NCBI GenBank assembly: GCA_031264075.1
Contig: JAISEO010000053.1
Coordinates: 1 to 32,339 of the forward strand
Direction: 5' to 3'
DNA: 32,339 nt
From: Coriobacteriales bacterium
GTDB lineage: Bacteria; Actinomycetota; Coriobacteriia; Coriobacteriales; UBA8131
Made by a program: the position numbers and the translations under genes. Positions 12,231 through 32,267 of the stretch are shown in pieces. The notes under the pieces were generated by a model. That model saw only the letters and a list, made by a program, of their open reading frames with translations, did not search any database and was not told the origin of the DNA. Within the stretch, counting starts at the first letter, position 1. Every line of letters starts with the position of its first letter.

Positions 12231-14822
12231 ATGAGAAAGGTTGCGAAGATTTTGCAAGGGACAGAAGACAGCAGGCGAAAGCCTCAACCGCGTCAACGGT
12301 TTGGCGTGCGCAGAGCCGCTGTGATTGCCCTGGCGGTCATGATGGTTCTTTCGACCGTGGGCGCACCGCTTGCTTCGGCCAGGCCTGTGTATGCCGAGGC
12401 CGAGATACCGCCAGGCGTGAGCGCGGACGAGGGCAGGGATCCCATAACCGTAGCGGCCCTAAGTAGCTTCACCACCCTTGGCACGCCCACTCTCACCAGT
12501 GACGACCCAAAGGGCCTGCCGGTCATCGGTGTTGCGCTGCGCGCTCTCCCCGGCACCTGGCTACCTGAGCCGAGCAGCTTCAGCTACCAGTGGTTCTCGT
12601 ATGAAGAGCCAATCAGCGGCGCAACCGGGGCCGCCTATGTGCCTGTTATTGATGACTGGTGCAATGAGATAAGCGTCAAGGTTACCGCTCATCGTAGCGG
12701 CTACGAGGATGCCACGGTACAGTCCGGCTTTGTCCAACCGGAGCCCTTCGAGGACGACGGCGGTACCGGTAACGGTGACACGGGCAAGGGCGATGACGGC
12801 ACGGGCCATACAGGCGATGATGACGGTGGCGCTGGTGATAACACCGGCGATAAAGACGATGAAGGTGATGAGGACAGCAGCGATTTTCGCAGCACCTATT
12901 ATCCCTGGGCCGTGCACGCTGCCACCGGCAACTATCTCCAGGACAACTACGATGAGGTTCCCGCAGTGCACAGCTTTGAATCGGTAACACAGGAGCGACT
13001 GCTTGATATTCTCAGCAGCGCGGGCGATTACTACCTCGTTTTTGGTGGGCCGAGCAGAGTGAGTTCTCAAAGGATCCTGCCCCTGATAAACCAGCAGGCC
13101 CAAAGCGCCGGTATCACCAGGATATATCACTTTGATCCTCTGATTGACGGATATCAGGCTGATATCACTGTTCCTGACAGCCCGTACCGGACTTCTCAGT
13201 CCATCAGCGCGCTCTGGGATCGTATCACCGCCCTTTTGCCCACCGGCGAACCCCTGGCGAGCTATGACCTCACCGATACCCTGTTCTTCAGGTATCACGC
13301 AAACCCGCAGAACCTCGGGAGCCGCGGCGCGATACCAGCTTTCTACCGCTTTACCGCCGCACAGGCACAGGCCTTTGACGAGGCCAGCGAGAGGTCTGCC
13401 ATTGACCGGGTGTTCAGGAACGGCAGCACCGTTGTGCTCTCAAGCGTGCGCACAGACCTGCAGTTCTTCAACAGGGTGTACAATGCCTCGGCCACTCTGG
13501 TCAACTCCCGGATGCCCGAGCAGGACTACAAGGTCGATGCTGCGTCCATCACACTGTTTGACGGCCTCACAGAATCAAACTTCAAACTGCATCAGATAAG
13601 CTTTGCGGAACTGCAGAACCTGTACAACACTCCCGGCGAGCACATCATTTTCTTCGGTGCCAGCTGGTGCCATAACACGCAGGCCATTATCGGTACCGTG
13701 GCCGCCGAGGCAGCCAGAAACCCAAACATCAGCACTGTGTATGTCTACGACACCACGCTGGGCAATCAAGTAAGCTTTGGTACCGGCGCAAACAACGACA
13801 GGGCCACGGCCTATTCCAGCGTTTTCAACACCCGCAACGGTGCCAAGGACGGGCCCGCCGGAAACAACAATCTCAGCTACGTATACGGAGAGGCTGTGCG
13901 GCCCCTGGGCAGCTTTCTCAGTGAGAACAACACCAATAAAACCGGCTCGATAGAGTTTTACGCCAATGGCGATCTCAGCGGGACAAGCCCGGTGAGTTCT
14001 GTGTTGCCCTGGAATGCCACGGGCCTGACCCCGGCAGCCAGCATCAACGCCATTCGTTTGCAGTTGCCGTTTCTCGTGGCTTATGACAAGGACTCAGGCA
14101 GCAGCAACAAGGCGGTTCGGCAATGGCTCCACCAACAAACCAGCGCGGCCAATGAGGGCAAATACCTGGAGTACATGCTCGAGCTGGCCTGGGTGCGTGC
14201 GGGAGGATGCACATCTGCCGCTGAGGCCGCTGCCAAAGGAGTGACGGCTGCCTATGAGAGCACGAGGGTCTTCCGAAACGGCGGCATTACCAACGACGAA
14301 GGCCTGACTATCGCTCAGGCGGGTGCCCGGGCAATCGCCCAGGTCAACCATGTTCTGCAGGTCAGCGGCAAAGAGGATACTACCGGGGAGAGTGACAAGG
14401 GAGAGTCTGGCGTAGAGGAGCCAGGCTCAGGGTCAGAGAACGCACCGGCTGCTACGCCTGAGGCAACTCCCAACCCTGGCTCAGCGGCTGCAATACCCAT
14501 TACCTTCAGGCAGGGCGCAGGCACTTCTTCGGCAGCTACGACCCGTACAGCTTCTGCAGCCCTCGCCGACGGGGACACAGGCTCTGAATCGTCCAACAGG
14601 GCAACAGGAACAAGACAGGCATCGCTGGGGATTCCCGAGGCGGCAACGCCGCTCGGCGATGTGTCTGCTGCGTCGTCAAGCGCCGGCACTACGGACTTCA
14701 GGCTGCCGTTGGCGGTAGCTTTATTGCTGACAGCCCTGGCTGTATTTGCCGCAATCGGCATCAAGACCGGTTTTATTGCGAGGCCAGTGCCCAAGAAGAT
14801 ACAAGAAGAAGGAGGTGCCTGA
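12231..14822 (+). CDS. Membrane-anchored surface protein with tandem thioredoxin-like domains
   Basis: 863 residues, paralogous to the thioredoxin-like part of the 8566 product. Signal peptide core about 28-45; Ig-like domain 80-172; a very acidic Gly/Asp/Thr linker (about 175-218). A thioredoxin-like domain without the active cysteine follows (AGDYYLVFGGPSRVSSQ near 265), then a second with FFGASWCHNT, nucleophile C480 in a CxxT site. A low-complexity linker (about 715-820) precedes a C-terminal membrane helix (about 825-848) and a short basic tail. The ATG at 12231 begins just before the positively charged signal-peptide start; the in-frame TTG 24 bp upstream is not needed. Probable role is extracytoplasmic thiol-disulfide chemistry or thiol binding. 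The substrate is unknown. Confidence 0.78.
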   Translation: MRKVAKILQGTEDSRRKPQPRQRFGVRRAAVIALAVMMVLSTVGAPLASARPVYAEAEIPPGVSADEGRDPITVAALSSFTTLGTPTLTSDDPKGLPVIGVALRALPGTWLPEPSSFSYQWFSYEEPISGATGAAYVPVIDDWCNEISVKVTAHRSGYEDATVQSGFVQPEPFEDDGGTGNGDTGKGDDGTGHTGDDDGGAGDNTGDKDDEGDEDSSDFRSTYYPWAVHAATGNYLQDNYDEVPAVHSFESVTQERLLDILSSAGDYYLVFGGPSRVSSQRILPLINQQAQSAGITRIYHFDPLIDGYQADITVPDSPYRTSQSISALWDRITALLPTGEPLASYDLTDTLFFRYHANPQNLGSRGAIPAFYRFTAAQAQAFDEASERSAIDRVFRNGSTVVLSSVRTDLQFFNRVYNASATLVNSRMPEQDYKVDAASITLFDGLTESNFKLHQISFAELQNLYNTPGEHIIFFGASWCHNTQAIIGTVAAEAARNPNISTVYVYDTTLGNQVSFGTGANNDRATAYSSVFNTRNGAKDGPAGNNNLSYVYGEAVRPLGSFLSENNTNKTGSIEFYANGDLSGTSPVSSVLPWNATGLTPAASINAIRLQLPFLVAYDKDSGSSNKAVRQWLHQQTSAANEGKYLEYMLELAWVRAGGCTSAAEAAAKGVTAAYESTRVFRNGGITNDEGLTIAQAGARAIAQVNHVLQVSGKEDTTGESDKGESGVEEPGSGSENAPAATPEATPNPGSAAAIPITFRQGAGTSSAATTRTASAALADGDTGSESSNRATGTRQASLGIPEAATPLGDVSAASSSAGTTDFRLPLAVALLLTALAVFAAIGIKTGFIARPVPKKIQEEGGA

Positions 14823-27186: not shown

Positions 27187-28539
27187 ATGAAGAAGATAGC
27201 AATCATCGGCGGCGGAGCGGCAGGCAGTGGGGCGGTCTGGCAGCTGTATAAGAAGCTCGGTGCCGAGGTCGAGGTCACGGTCTTTGAGCGCAGGGAGCAC
27301 GTGGGAGGCCGCGCCTGGGATCTCAGCTTTGCCGGCTGCCATATGGAGGTCGGCGGCGTACTCTTTCACTCCACCGGACAGATAACCACGGAAATGATGG
27401 AGTATACGGGCTGCAAAGAGGCCCAACCCTCGCTTTCCATCGACGGCAAGGACGAGACCTACGCGTTTTGGACGGACAGGGGCTTTCCCATCGTTGTGCA
27501 TACCTCGCTCTTCTCCATGGCCTTTGGCATCCTGAGGCACGTGGGTATTCCCAGCGCGCTCAGGGTAACCAACAGGGCTGTCAAGATGGCCGAGCAGTAC
27601 GAAGGCGTCTACAAAGAGCTCAGGGAGCACGCACCCTTTGCCACGCCCCAGGCGCTCTTTGGTGAGCTGGGGCTGCTCGAACCCACGCACATCTCCACGG
27701 CTGACTACTTCAGGCAGATAAAGGTCAATGACCGCATGACCTATGACGTGGTGGAGGCCATCACGCACAATATGTACAACCAGGGCGCGGAGATGAATGC
27801 CCTGGCCTCGCTCGTGGGCCTTGCCGGTGCGGGCCTGGCTGGCGGGCATCTGTACGTTGTCGAGGGAGGCAACTGGACGCTCTACGACAAGATGATTAAG
27901 AAGACCGGTACGCGGCTGCTCGCGGACACCAAGGTGGAGAAGATTCTCATCACCAGCACACCGGAGGGGCCGCGCCCCTTTGCCTACAGCCTGCTTGCCG
28001 ATGATGGCGAGAGTTTTGAGGCCGACGCGGTCATACTGGCCGCCCCTCCCGCGCTGGCCGATCTCAGCATAGAGCTTGACGGGGAGCCCTTTGAGCTTAC
28101 GGCCTATCCCTATCAGGAGGTGCAGACCACGCTGGTGGTAGGCGAGCTTAACCCGGAGTACTTCGGCCAGAAGCCCGGCGCGCATATGCCCAGCACCATC
28201 TTTACGGCATCCAGCGCGCCTGCTCCCTTCAAGTCCATCGGCACCACCGGCTGGTCGCCAGACTACAACAGCCGCATCTATAAGATATTCAGCGCGGATC
28301 ACGTCATGACGGAGGCGGAGTTACACGAGATATTCACCAATATCCTCGATACTCACGTGCTGGTCTGGCGCGGCGCCTATCCCGTACTCACGCCAAACAT
28401 CGATCACCTGCCCTTTGAGCTTAACCGGGGCCTTTATTTTGCCAATGCCCTGGAGACCGTTGCCGGCTCCCTTGAGGTGGAAACGGTTGGCGGGGTCAAC
28501 GCGGCCAATTGCTGTGTGGAGTATCTGGCTGTGGCGTAG
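27187..28539 (+). CDS. FAD-dependent oxidase resembling eukaryotic prenylcysteine oxidase
   Basis: 450 residues. The N-terminal FAD motif IAIIGGGAAGSGAVWQL, then VTVFERREHVGGRAWD and MEVGGVLFH. Segments along the whole length recall prenylcysteine oxidase PCYOX1 rather than ordinary amine oxidases: the GAEMNALASLVGLAGAG-type centre followed by VVEGGN, the LVVGELNPEYF strand, IYKIFSADHVMTEAEL, and the C-terminal AYPVLTP with LYFANALETVAGSLE. PCYOX1 cleaves the thioether of prenylcysteine to cysteine, aldehyde and hydrogen peroxide. There is no signal peptide, so the bacterial protein is cytoplasmic. The substrate is inferred only from resemblance. The start follows GGAGGGT. Confidence 0.72.
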   Translation: MKKIAIIGGGAAGSGAVWQLYKKLGAEVEVTVFERREHVGGRAWDLSFAGCHMEVGGVLFHSTGQITTEMMEYTGCKEAQPSLSIDGKDETYAFWTDRGFPIVVHTSLFSMAFGILRHVGIPSALRVTNRAVKMAEQYEGVYKELREHAPFATPQALFGELGLLEPTHISTADYFRQIKVNDRMTYDVVEAITHNMYNQGAEMNALASLVGLAGAGLAGGHLYVVEGGNWTLYDKMIKKTGTRLLADTKVEKILITSTPEGPRPFAYSLLADDGESFEADAVILAAPPALADLSIELDGEPFELTAYPYQEVQTTLVVGELNPEYFGQKPGAHMPSTIFTASSAPAPFKSIGTTGWSPDYNSRIYKIFSADHVMTEAELHEIFTNILDTHVLVWRGAYPVLTPNIDHLPFELNRGLYFANALETVAGSLEVETVGGVNAANCCVEYLAVA

Positions 28540-28553
28540 ACTTGTAAAGATGA

Positions 28554-28670
28554 CATACGATATACCCGGTAGGCTCCCTGGATTCCACCATCTACAATGC
28601 CGACGGGTTTATCTGGATGTATTCGCCGGAAGAAATCAACTATGACTTTGAAGCTGGTGGTGGTGAGTAG
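28554..28670 (+). pseudogene. Short gene remnant related to the one at 30467-30763
   Basis: A frame without a start reads VGSLDSTIYNADGFIWMY and then an acidic end and stop. The same VGS...T-I-x-NADGF pattern occurs in the longer remnant at 30467-30763, on the other side of the AAA ATPase gene. It is probably the C-terminal end of a lost surface or lipoprotein-like gene. The rest of the gap, 28671-28928, shows no gene. Confidence 0.45.
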
Positions 28671-28928
28671 GAGCTGAGGGAAGACCACTTCCGTAGGGGA
28701 CGGCGTCCTTGATGTCCCGCCACAGCTGAATCTCCCCTGTCAGCCCTGTCTCATGCCGCAAGGTATTTCTTTCGCTGGTTCTTGAAGATAATCACCGGTG
28801 GCCATCCTAGCCGCAAGAGTATGAGGTTTAAGAGCAGTCTCCCTTCCCCGTTATCTCAGAGCATATCGAGGTGTCCGGGCTGTTCAAGCTGTGGCTGGCA
28901 TCCTTTGTTTATCTCTACGCCTCTATTA

Positions 28929-29043
28929 CTGCCAAAATGGTGTTACGCAGAGCGGAAGTATCTGCCAAAATAGTGTTGAAGAGTCCCTATCAATCTGCCA
29001 TAATGGTGTACGTACACCTCAAATGTACTAACGATTTGGTGTT
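28929..29043 (+). repeat. Four direct repeats at exact 33-bp spacing before the AAA ATPase gene
   Basis: CTGCCAAAATGGTGTT (28929-28944), CTGCCAAAATAGTGTT (28962-28977), CTGCCATAATGGTGTA (28995-29010) and a degenerate CTAACGATTTGGTGTT (29028-29043). Starts are 33 bp apart each time, about three helical turns, while the 17 bp between them differ. The last copy ends 37 bp before the ATG. This looks like an array of binding sites rather than a coding repeat, because stops fall within it in all frames needed. Confidence 0.8.
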
Positions 29044-29080
29044 TGCCTGGTAAACTGCCTGGTAAAAGTAGTGCTAAAGG

Positions 29081-30391
29081 ATGGTAAGAGTGAAGCGGAA
29101 ACTCTATAAACAGCTGTTGGATTGGAAGATGCGTGGCAGCATAAAGCCCCTGATGCTCATCGGTGCCAGGCAAGTCGGAAAAACTTGGTTAATCAGGGAG
29201 TTCTGCAAGAGGGAGTTTGGCGATTATCTGGAAATCAACCTCTTTAACCGTCCGGACATCATCGATCTGTTCAGCGAAGACATTGCAGTGGAATTGAAGA
29301 TCGCAAGGCTCAGCTTGTATCTTGGGCGCTCTATTGACTTTGAGAGCACCGTGTTGTTCTTTGACGAGATACAGGAATCTGAAGACGCGGTCTTTCTTTT
29401 GAAATACTTTGCAGAATCAGAGGTGCCTTACAAGATAATCTGCGCCGGTTCGCTCCTCGGGGTTAAAATCAATCGCTTCAGCAAGCCTTTTCCCGTGGGC
29501 CAGGTCGAGAAACTCCATCTGTACCCCCTGGATTTTGAGGAGTTCATGATTGCATCGGGCGAGGAGCTTCTTGTGGAGGAGATTCGCGCCTGTTATGACA
29601 GTGACAGGCACATGCCGGATCCGCTACACGGTATCTGCCTTGAGCGTTACCGGTCATATCTCTGTGTTGGCGGTATGCCGGCAGCGGTAAGCGACTTTGT
29701 TGCCAAAGGCAAGGATGTGTTGCGTTTTGACGCCAGGATCCTCACCGATATTCGTACGGACTATCTGAGTGATATGACCAGGCACATCCGTGCTCCCATA
29801 GAAAGTACTCGTATCGAGGCAATATATACTTCTCTGCCTTCTCAGCTGGCAAACCAGAGCGGTAAGTTCCAATACGCAAAGGTCAGACAGGGGGCAAAAA
29901 ACCGTGAATACTATTCTGCCCTCGATTGGCTGGTATCCAGCGAGATGGTATTTCTCTGCCCACAGGTCACCTTACCCAGCAAGCCCTTGCGCGGGTTTGA
30001 GCGCGAGGGCTTTTTCAAGGTCTTTTTGAACGACTGTGGTCTGCTGTGCAATGCACTGGGCGTGTTGTTCCCGGATATCATGCTCAACCGCGACCTGCCC
30101 TTTAAGGGGATTATCGCTGAGAATTATGTTGCCACCCAGCTTGTTGCCAGTGGACATGCCCTCTTTTATTGGCATAGCGGCAACGAGGCGGAGGTAGATT
30201 TTCTGAGAGAGGTGCCCGAGGGCGTTGTCCCCCTTGAGGTCAAATCCGGTGATAACAAGCGCTCGGCCAGCCTGCGATCCTATGTGCAAACGTACAAGCC
30301 CCCCTATTCAATCAGACTGACCGCAAGGAACTTTGGTTATACAAACAAGATAAAGTCCGTGCCCCTCTACGCTGCGTTTTGTATCGCATAA
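29081..30391 (+). CDS. AAA ATPase with DUF4143-type C-terminal domain
   Basis: 436 residues. Walker A G28-A-R-Q-V-G-K34-T35 and Walker B VLFFD95-E96 lie in the N-terminal AAA_14 domain, with a sensor-like AGSLLG following near 137. The C-terminal part carries AEVDFL (about 369) and VPLEVKSGDN (about 387-395), the restriction-endonuclease-like PD-(D/E)XK signature usual in DUF4143 proteins. The cellular role of the family is unclear; such genes are scattered as accessory genes in gut anaerobes. The start is ATG 29081, with GTG 29090 an alternative with better spacing to AAAGGATGG. Four 33-bp-phased repeats precede it. Confidence 0.85.
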   Translation: MVRVKRKLYKQLLDWKMRGSIKPLMLIGARQVGKTWLIREFCKREFGDYLEINLFNRPDIIDLFSEDIAVELKIARLSLYLGRSIDFESTVLFFDEIQESEDAVFLLKYFAESEVPYKIICAGSLLGVKINRFSKPFPVGQVEKLHLYPLDFEEFMIASGEELLVEEIRACYDSDRHMPDPLHGICLERYRSYLCVGGMPAAVSDFVAKGKDVLRFDARILTDIRTDYLSDMTRHIRAPIESTRIEAIYTSLPSQLANQSGKFQYAKVRQGAKNREYYSALDWLVSSEMVFLCPQVTLPSKPLRGFEREGFFKVFLNDCGLLCNALGVLFPDIMLNRDLPFKGIIAENYVATQLVASGHALFYWHSGNEAEVDFLREVPEGVVPLEVKSGDNKRSASLRSYVQTYKPPYSIRLTARNFGYTNKIKSVPLYAAFCIA

Positions 30392-30466
30392 GGAACTCAT
30401 TCATATGACGATTCTTTTGCCTTTGCCACTGTCTTTGGTAGAGCTCCTTCTTCTTGGCGCGCCTGA

Positions 30467-30763
30467 AATCAGAACACCACTCTTATCGTAGGACTTTTCA
30501 GGTACAGCGGAGCTGGAAACTGGAATATTAATCTGGTTGGTTCGAACTCAGCAGGAACAACGATTTTTAACGCCGACGGGTTTCTGTACTCTCTGCTTTT
30601 GGGAGCGAACAACGGAGATCCTGTGATCATCGTCACCTACAAGATGAAAGAGGTCACGGGCTGCACGACCATGCAACAGCTTTACGCCAAAATCCAAAAT
30701 GAAACCAGTACGGCTTACGATGCTAACGAGGGCTATCGCGTTTACCATCTTGTCAGACCCTGA
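30467..30763 (+). pseudogene. Gene remnant, C-terminal part of an unknown protein
   Basis: A frame of 98 codons lacking a start reads as coherent protein: LIVGLFRYSGAGNWNINLVG, then TTIFNADGFLYS, VIIVTYKMKEVTG and a normal end at TGA 30761. The beta-rich pattern and NADGF match the shorter remnant at 28554-28670. The missing N-terminus and in-frame stop upstream (30464) mark it as broken. The 196 bp from 30764 to 30959 hold nothing recognisable. Confidence 0.5.
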
Positions 30764-30959: not shown

Positions 30960-31298
30960 CTATACCTGCTCTTCCAGATGCAGCTTGTCATGGGGAGAGC
31001 GGCCTTGGGTGTGTTGGAGCAGGGCGAATTCGTCGTATTCTTCGATGCCCAGCGATGCGAGTATCTGGTTGATGTTCTGGCGGTTGGGCGGCACAAGGCG
31101 GTCGCGCACCCAGGCAAGGGACTGCCGTTCGTCGAGATTGTAGGTGCCCTGTTGGATGTAGAGCGCCAGCGACAGGGGAGTGTCTTCCCAGTTGCGCTCG
31201 GGGTTGATCTCCAGGTGCCAGGCAGCGGTTTCCGGCGCATAGCTCAACGTGCCAAAGTCCACGCCGGCGTCATCGGTTATCAAGTAGTTCCTGAGCAC
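30960..31298 (-). CDS. Partner protein of the HipA-like kinase
   Basis: 112 residues starting from GTG 31298 with AAAGGATGAG before it. It reads MLRNYLITDDAGVDFGTLSY, then ALYIQQGTYNLDE and RLVPPNRQNINQILASLGIEEYDEFALL. I recall similar small proteins beside short HipA-like kinases in Clostridia, but no named family comes to mind. It overlaps the kinase gene by 29 nt, so the two form one unit. It could be an antitoxin-like or substrate-recruiting subunit, by analogy with the separate small subunit of HipBST systems. Confidence 0.6.
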   Translation of the reverse strand: MLRNYLITDDAGVDFGTLSYAPETAAWHLEINPERNWEDTPLSLALYIQQGTYNLDERQSLAWVRDRLVPPNRQNINQILASLGIEEYDEFALLQHTQGRSPHDKLHLEEQV

Positions 31299-32076
31299 GT
31301 CTCATCCTTTGTACCAGGAGTTCCAGGATCTTTTCCCTGTGCCATGAGGGAAAGTCCTCGTCTTCCCCAAAGACCTTGAATAACGCCTCACTGAGTTCCT
31401 CCTTGCTGAGTGTGGGCACGCGCAGGCAGGCGTCTTCGATCAGCACGAGATTGTCCTCCAGATAGCGGGTACCAAAGTCGCTGTTGGTGATGTAGTTCGT
31501 CAGTACATCAAAGGCCAGTATCTCCTTCTTTCGATTAGTGAGGGGCGCAAAGAACGAGACACCATTATCAAAGAGCGGGGCCAGCTCCAGCCCGCCATTC
31601 TTGATGAACTCCAGGTTATTGCAATGCCGGTCACGGTTGTAGATGAGATAGTCAAAGAGCAGCATCTCGTCGGCGCGCTGGCCAAAGCCGCTACGTCGCA
31701 AGAACTCCAGACGTGTCTCGCCTGGCAACTTCTGGGTCTCATACACCCGCTCAAAGGGCACCTTGGACATGCCAGCAGGCAGGAAGTCGGCGGCCTTCTG
31801 CACAAAGGTGGTGTACTCACGCCCGTTGTGAACAAGACGCGCCTTAAGCACCTCGCTGTCCAGTACGTCAAAGCCCAGGAGCATGCCCACGCGCGACGCG
31901 AGATATTCATACACGCTCTCAAAGCCCACAAAGCCGCGCTCGTCGTCATAGTTTGAGAGCTTGAGATAGTACGTGATGCCTTCAATCTCACAGGACGCCT
32001 TCAGGTAAGCCCCGCCGCTGGTATAGCTCGTGAGATTACGTTCCCAATACACATCTGTAAGATCGATGACATCCAT
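31270..32076 (-). CDS. Short HipA-like serine/threonine kinase
   Basis: 268 residues. Kinase-type motifs are seen at LFDYLIYNRDRHCNN (N147-x-D149 catalytic loop) and APLFDNG (D170-N171, metal binding), with a candidate ATP lysine at K39 in YYLKLSN. It lacks the N-terminal subdomain of full-length HipA (about 440 residues). The start ATG 32076 begins the conserved IDLTDVYWERNLTS and has a TACAAT -10 only 8 nt upstream, so its mRNA may be leaderless; the GTG at 32109 would be an alternative. HipA kinases phosphorylate targets such as glutamyl-tRNA synthetase in persistence toxin-antitoxin systems. The target here is unknown and no HipB-type HTH gene is adjacent. Confidence 0.78.
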   Translation of the reverse strand: MDVIDLTDVYWERNLTSYTSGGAYLKASCEIEGITYYLKLSNYDDERGFVGFESVYEYLASRVGMLLGFDVLDSEVLKARLVHNGREYTTFVQKAADFLPAGMSKVPFERVYETQKLPGETRLEFLRRSGFGQRADEMLLFDYLIYNRDRHCNNLEFIKNGGLELAPLFDNGVSFFAPLTNRKKEILAFDVLTNYITNSDFGTRYLEDNLVLIEDACLRVPTLSKEELSEALFKVFGEDEDFPSWHREKILELLVQRMRRAQELLDNR

Positions 32077-32084
32077 AGCTAGGG

Positions 32085-32090
32085 ATTGTA
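32085..32090 (-). promoter_or_regulatory. Candidate -10 element for a leaderless HipA-like mRNA
   Basis: TACAAT on the minus strand ends 8 nt before the ATG at 32076, and no Shine-Dalgarno is visible there. The -35 region is weak. Leaderless transcripts are common in Actinomycetota, but this is inferred. Confidence 0.4.
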
Positions 32091-32267
32091 GCAGATACGG
32101 GTGTTGCACCGTGCTGGCTCTTGTTTGCCATCGATCTTCCTGACCAAATCAACAAAGACAAATTCTTGTTGTCGTTGCTCGCCCTCCGCAATGCAATAAC
32201 AAAAACTCTGGCACCTATGCCTGCCTCGCCTGTGTTCGGAGCACGTATGGGTATACAGATATTATCA

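Follow-up and report, generated by a model that had tools for sequence, protein, structure and literature searches.

Phased direct repeats at the probable promoters of DUF4143 ATPase genes, with a step that follows the protein clade and a word that follows the gene

The window analysed here, a stretch of 32,339 nucleotides from a Coriobacteriales bacterium, carries a set of short direct repeats immediately in front of a gene for a DUF4143 ATPase. The question raised by this locus is whether the repeats are a peculiarity of one gene or part of a wider pattern, and which protein would read them. A first-pass annotation made from the letters alone had described three nearly identical 16-bp motifs and a degraded fourth with a step of 33 bp. 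Recounting confirmed this description (16, 15, 14 and 11 of 16 matches), and the start-to-start step of the four units is exactly 33 bp. The three-copy score at 33 bp was 42/48, compared with a maximum of 33 in 500 dinucleotide shuffles of positions 28800-29080, in each of which the best of all spacings from 17 to 60 was taken. Chance or low complexity as the origin of the array was rejected by the shuffle tests, spacing controls and control regions.

Random occurrence of the motif elsewhere in the genome was among the outcomes that the first-pass annotation had named as speaking against its reading. With up to two mismatches, the 16-mer occurred at three places in the 2.18-Mb genome, all in the window array; at three mismatches the matches were near background (26 in total, vs 17 for the reversed control pattern). 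Matches with up to two mismatches were present in 27 of 32 relatives' genomes and, among the matches listed, none lay within 200 bp of another except the window's three. When two units of the window word were sought in viral contigs, none were found. Unit 4 is similar to units of the homologues L118/L277 (56% identical) and L276 (66%). Elsewhere in the window, at about 12701-13060, a 33-bp periodic repeat lies in a long coding frame and has no relation to the promoter arrays.

The distance from the array to the gene depends on the start codon. Unit 4 ends 37 bp ahead of ATG 29081, as the first-pass annotation had stated, but GTG 29090 appears to be the more likely start because homologues begin with (M/V)KRK and AAAGGA fits as a ribosome-binding site; the array would then end about 46 bp before the start codon. 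A promoter-like pair overlaps the third unit (Table 1), although TTGAAG-17-CATAAT is not above chance, with 2 such matches found and 1.5 expected in the region.

Table 1. Features of the repeat array and the ATPase gene in the window (positions of the whole stretch).
Feature	Position	Strand	Basis or remark
Repeat unit 1	28929..28944	+	16/16, reference unit
Repeat unit 2	28962..28977	+	15/16 matches to unit 1
Promoter-like pair TTGAAG-17-CATAAT, TG before second hexamer	28976..29004	+	second hexamer within unit 3
Repeat unit 3	28995..29010	+	14/16; an A-to-T difference gives the CATAAT of the -10-like box
Repeat unit 4	29028..29043	+	degraded, 11/16 matches to unit 1
Possible fifth unit	29060..29075	+	very degraded, 9/16, 32 bp after unit 4; weak
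Ribosome-binding-site-like AAAGGA	29076..29081	+	sequence and homologue starts; ahead of GTG 29090
AAA_14-DUF4143 ATPase gene (PADLOC PDC-S01)	29081..30391	+	Pfam and PADLOC models; probable start GTG 29090
AAA_14 ATPase domain, residues 22-156	29144..29548	+	domain match, alignment
Winged-helix-like region, residues 239-316	29795..30028	+	read from predicted secondary structure
PD-(D/E)XK-like nuclease motif E371, D373, E386, K388	30191..30244	+	alignment of 81 proteins
Clade of the window gene			class A, 32/33 bp step

Both domains of the window ATPase scored over the curated Pfam cut-offs (AAA_14, 77.1 bits with a cut-off of 27; DUF4143, 104.3 bits with a cut-off of 28.1), and the PADLOC PDC-S01 models matched residues 4-435 with an E-value of 2.7e-137. 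The passages of the PDC study covered here (NAR 2026, PMC12988326) rank PDC-S01 fourth in abundance among prokaryotic defence systems, counting 9,986 cases in archaea and 29,494 in bacteria, and state that most PDC candidates still await validation. We suspect the ATPase-nuclease, a phage-defence candidate, to be an anti-virus protein. In an alignment of 81 proteins, made up of the window ATPase and 80 of 99 usable loci (L185 and L204 contain stops in the matched stretch), Walker A residues G28, G33 and K34 and the Walker B pair D95-E96 are invariant. K388 of the nuclease-like motif is also invariant, and E371, D373 and E386 are each at least 90% conserved. An AlphaFold2 model built on this alignment (pLDDT 93.2, pTM 0.92) predicts an AAA+ core, a helical lid, a winged-helix-like region (predicted helices 239-256, 265-268 and 274-286; strands 290-296 and 307-316) and a C-terminal part with the conserved nuclease residues. 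ARAGORN called a tRNA-Glu at 29978-30067 (+) within the ATPase coding sequence, which is probably a false positive.

Searched by sequence, the solved structures included no convincing relative of the ATPase (best E 0.014). The top structural matches of the model were the archaeal ATPases 2qen (Z 15.9) and 2fna (Z 15.1, rmsd 4.6, 275 aligned), together with CED-4 (4m9s; Z 15.0, rmsd 4.9, 273 aligned); plant NLRs such as RPP1 (Z 14.1) were also matched, as was Avs5 (Z 11.1). Origin-bound Orc1/Cdc6 (2qby) ranked below 2qen and 2fna, with Z 11.5 and an rmsd of 9.6 over 256 residues. The genome of the window has 15 DUF4143 matches, 12 of them with a full-length gene. Of 60 genomes from the family and order (G000 to G059), 57 have DUF4143 genes, with up to 24 per genome.

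The upstream scan of other DUF4143 ATPase genes proposed in the first-pass annotation revealed 33-bp phasing far more generally than had been guessed, whereas the exact word was not common to distant homologues. In the window's own genome, clear arrays were found at 7 of the 12 full-length genes, at 33 bp for L003, L004, L005, L006 and L008 and at 22/23 bp for L007 and L011; L013, which passes the array test with a 9-bp unit (z 4.9), was left out of this count. A short DUF4143 remnant in the same genome (L015, C50; a 106-aa frame) has repeated CGCATATGGTA-like words in front of it, and this array has perhaps outlived its gene. Relatives in the family and order supplied 89 further loci, giving 104 in all and 98 testable after the exclusion of L012, L014, L015 and L046 (no recognisable Walker motif) and of L054 and L060 (too short). 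Upstream regions of 57/98 beat all 100 shuffles, compared with 1/98 for coding stretches of the same genes, and the best shifts concentrated at 23 bp (16 loci), 32 bp (12) and 33 bp (11). The region upstream of L086 holds 44-bp tandem repeats and a GC-rich palindrome, unlike the phased arrays.

An independent sample comprised 80 named loci from many phyla and 21 viral loci. Upstream regions beat all 200 shuffles in 23/80 named and 10/20 viral cases, and 32 of these 33 significant regions were at 32, 33, 64 or 66 bp; the L132 array at 64 bp looks like coding sequence. Control regions were significant in 1/80 (named) and 0/21 (viral) cases for coding sequence, 4/76 and 0/21 for downstream sequence and 2/77 and 0/19 for far-upstream sequence, none of them at 32, 33, 64 or 66 bp. 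A focused test of the same named and viral genes detected 32/33-bp repeats in 49/100, as against one each at 27/28 bp and 37/38 bp, and other genes of these loci had 32/33-bp repeats in 3/133 cases. About half of the tested DUF4143 ATPase genes have no detectable array. Among six named records that we checked, clear 33-bp arrays are present in Segatella copri DSM 18205 (at a plasmid gene), in Collinsella aerofaciens and on one phage contig, and Bacteroides thetaiotaomicron has one at 66 bp. Parabacteroides distasonis has a weaker array, for which 2/200 shuffles reach the overall best and 0/200 do so at 32/33 bp, and in the Fusobacterium vincentii record an array was sought and none found. The window array is one case of a widespread promoter-repeat pattern of DUF4143 ATPases in bacteria and archaea.

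The arrays fall into two spacing classes. A phylum-wide sample for the shorter step, gathered with four class B proteins (33 loci, L256 and L259 left out), had 16/31 significant regions, mostly at 23 bp, and 0/31 significant coding controls. In the combined set, an array of 2 to 8 units was found in 129/231 regions: 80 of class A (46 at 33 bp, 34 at 32 bp) and 49 of class B (41 at 23 bp, 8 at 22 bp). Roughly one helical turn separates the steps of the two classes. When spacing class was placed on a 224-protein tree, it required 7 changes, while 500 shuffles gave a mean of 38.5 and a minimum of 31, and the deep clades contained 74 A/3 B and 45 B/3 A. The near-duplicates L235, L219, L212, L213 and L215 were left out of this tree; the multi-phylum, class B and combined-set counts include such duplicates. 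Six loci break the rule; most of their arrays are weak, but those of L261 and L094, at 33 bp within the other clade, are strong. Spacing and ATPase tree agree in samples that span the window's relatives, Bacillota, Bacteroidota, Spirochaetota, one archaeon, viral contigs and plasmids; a step that tracks the protein and not the host is expected if the protein sets the step.

As read from the sequences, the arrays appear to sit at or over the promoter of their own gene. The median gap between last unit and start codon is 43 bp in class A and 47 bp in class B. Between these two points, an exact TATAAT is present in 15/80 class A regions (3.8 expected) and 12/49 class B regions (1.3 expected), often in the last unit or no more than about 30 bp beyond it. 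By eye, the last unit itself includes TATAAT in L092, L240 and L193. On the P. distasonis plasmid the last unit continues into TATCTTTG, which we take to resemble the Bacteroidota -7 box.

The repeated word behaves quite differently from the step. Only 2 of 46 same-genome pairs had similar words, with a mean of 5.72 vs 5.11 for shuffled units, whereas the word was common to 7 of 13 cross-genome pairs with proteins at least 60% identical. Both the nearest orthologue of the window gene (L276, 66%) and the 56% homologue L277/L118 carry a related word with the 33-bp step. Among proteins less than about 50% identical, words were shared at close to background level, and the overall Spearman correlation between word similarity and protein identity was weak (0.13 and 0.10). 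In 33 loci, 72 word matches fell in the arrays and none in coding sequence, in the 1500 bp downstream or in the 1500 bp further upstream. The word of another array had two exact matches, both in its own array, plus one match with three mismatches.

A single universal word did not emerge. Class A has only a loose core, roughly nTnC, an A-tract and GTGTAA, resembling nTnCAAAAAnGTGTAA, with 34/65 loci above the 95% null; the class B core is weaker (16/39 loci). Relative to the gene, the common core can lie on either strand. Some words recur across phyla, such as TCTCCAA in Bacillota and Bacteroidota, and when single words were placed on the tree by parsimony they clustered no more than mildly (17/43 words). 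Dyad symmetry at p ≤ 0.05 was found in 14/66 class A arrays but in 3/39 class B arrays, so it is no general rule. In L296 (Collinsella aerofaciens), L217 and L119, each 33-bp class A unit resembles a complete dyad made up of two inverted half-sites, so that a unit may bind a dimer. We also looked for covariation between motif and protein; the winged-helix residues 239-316 gave no excess (31/60 permutations reached the value), and a small, unexpected excess in residues 161-238 (0/60 permutations) is confounded by relatedness.

We consider it likely that the array is a self-carried operator, on which an oligomer of the ATPase would bind cooperatively along one DNA face and control its own gene. 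The first-pass annotation had already guessed that the repeats may be the operator of the ATPase; the phasing at homologues favours an operator, with the ATPase as its presumed binder. The protein, with its AAA+ core, lid, winged-helix-like region and PD-(D/E)XK part, would recognise a word of about 16 bp that is specific to its gene. Several subunits would bind next to one another on the same face, since the words are spaced about three (32/33 bp) or two (22/23 bp) helical turns apart, and the array step would reflect the geometry of the oligomer. Because the units appear to lie at the -35/-10 region, occupancy would most likely repress transcription of the gene itself. Such repression might keep a dangerous nuclease scarce until the ATP state or, presumably, an infection cue changes the oligomer, and the array possibly has a role in holding the nuclease inactive. 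Self-recognition seems the best explanation for a single-gene system that has its own word and a clade-fixed step and recurs in different phyla, on plasmids and on viral contigs. A more specific version, which is conceivable but doubtful, makes the array a private address: a STAND/Orc-like ATPase would form a one-sided oligomer on its own array with a clade-specific step fixed by the protein, its resting state would silence the gene and hold the nuclease inactive, infection would free the active nuclease, and private words would keep co-resident paralogues apart.

The alternative closest to the operator is that the array is primarily a platform on which the ATPase-nuclease is loaded or assembled, as in Orc1/Cdc6 or a filament, with transcription control being secondary. 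The structural matches to Orc1/Cdc6 and STAND oligomers, the presence of up to 8 units in one array and a phasing compatible with a polymer all agree with this. The units, though, end at the promoter and TATAAT exceeds expectation in or just after the last one, which fits an operator, and we regard a platform as unlikely. Binding by a host regulator encoded elsewhere would accord with the covariation analysis, in which shared motifs could not be linked to the winged-helix region. Against it, the spacing follows the ATPase tree across phyla, an archaeon, viral contigs and plasmids, and arrays in one genome have so few words in common that one factor could hardly read all of them; this makes a host regulator improbable.

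Other readings seem much more remote. We give very little weight to the idea that the repeats mark the termini or the origin of a mobile element, as terminal repeats or iterons would. The genes are indeed numerous (15 DUF4143 matches in the genome) and occur on plasmids and viral contigs, but in the 33 loci the word was found neither downstream nor in the rest of the flanks; terminal repeats were rejected on this ground, the word being confined to the array region. The first-pass term "iteron" likewise finds no support in its replication sense, as AAA_14 and DUF4143 were the only domains found in the gene and neither is of the Rep type. It is equally improbable that the nuclease domain cuts at the repeats, as a self-target or a self-limiting switch: the PD-(D/E)XK residues are conserved and the word occurs only beside the gene, yet multi-unit arrays persist in many loci. 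Least credible of all is an array that is transcribed and acts as RNA, like CRISPR or a riboswitch. It has the appearance of repeat and spacer (16 + 17), but in the loci inspected the units lie at or upstream of promoter-like boxes, and the spacing is locked near whole helical turns in two clades. A known RNA family was rejected, with no Rfam family in 28500-30700.

The surroundings of the window gene contain further elements. The adjoining ORF at 31270-32109 (-) has a weak HipA_C match below the Pfam cut-off and matches PADLOC PDC-M03A (E 1.5e-12), and is a second, possibly partial, defence candidate. A HipA-family gene also lies near the ATPase copy on the B. thetaiotaomicron plasmid (L294). 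The 12-mer GCCGACGGGTTT occurs at 28599-28610 and 30572-30583, flanking the ATPase gene in stretches without long ORFs; the two copies are perhaps remnants of an interrupted region.

In the open-access literature on DUF4143, AAA_14, COG1373 and PDC-S01 we found no report of these promoter arrays. A predictable DNA site that a gene carries itself would provide a direct way to study a defence candidate that is very common and uncharacterised. It offers an assay for what these ATPases bind and how they are switched, as well as a check on gene starts and intactness. The rule that spacing follows the clade and the word follows the gene can be tested on thousands of loci, and the fixed step predicts the geometry of the oligomer on DNA.

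Several known systems share single features with the arrays. CRISPR repeats are about 23-50 bp long with cas genes nearby, whereas the window unit is 16 bp and no cas gene was found among the window ORFs given to Pfam. Plasmid iterons, too, are direct repeats in phase that lie next to a gene for a DNA-binding protein; the present genes have no Rep-type domain, include chromosomal and viral-contig copies, and have a spacing that follows the ATPase clade. Orc1/Cdc6 initiators have DNA-repeat sites near the initiator gene and, like the ATPase as predicted, combine AAA+ with a winged helix, but here a nuclease domain is fused, the words are gene-specific and lie on the promoter, and there is no sign of an origin. 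The predicted arrangement of AAA+ and winged helix also resembles that of STAND ATPases. Classical STAND members have a C-terminal sensor, in place of which the window ATPase has a nuclease domain, together with a DNA array at the promoter. By model match the window gene is a member of PDC-S01, with its layout of ATPase and PD-(D/E)XK; upstream arrays are not mentioned in the passages of the PDC-S01 study covered here (PMC12988326). A close parallel is RptR, as described in the parts of its report considered here: three direct repeats lie in the defence promoter of type I restriction-modification islands, two of them over the -10 box, and the repressor that binds them is encoded in the island (NAR 2025, PMC12255303). 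RptR thus demonstrates that a repressor can have its site on direct repeats over the promoter of a defence system. RptR is a small, separate, dimeric repressor that reads a 6-bp palindrome in 9-bp repeats, whereas here the presumed binder is the ATPase-nuclease itself, the units are about 16 bp with steps of whole helical turns, and the word varies from gene to gene.
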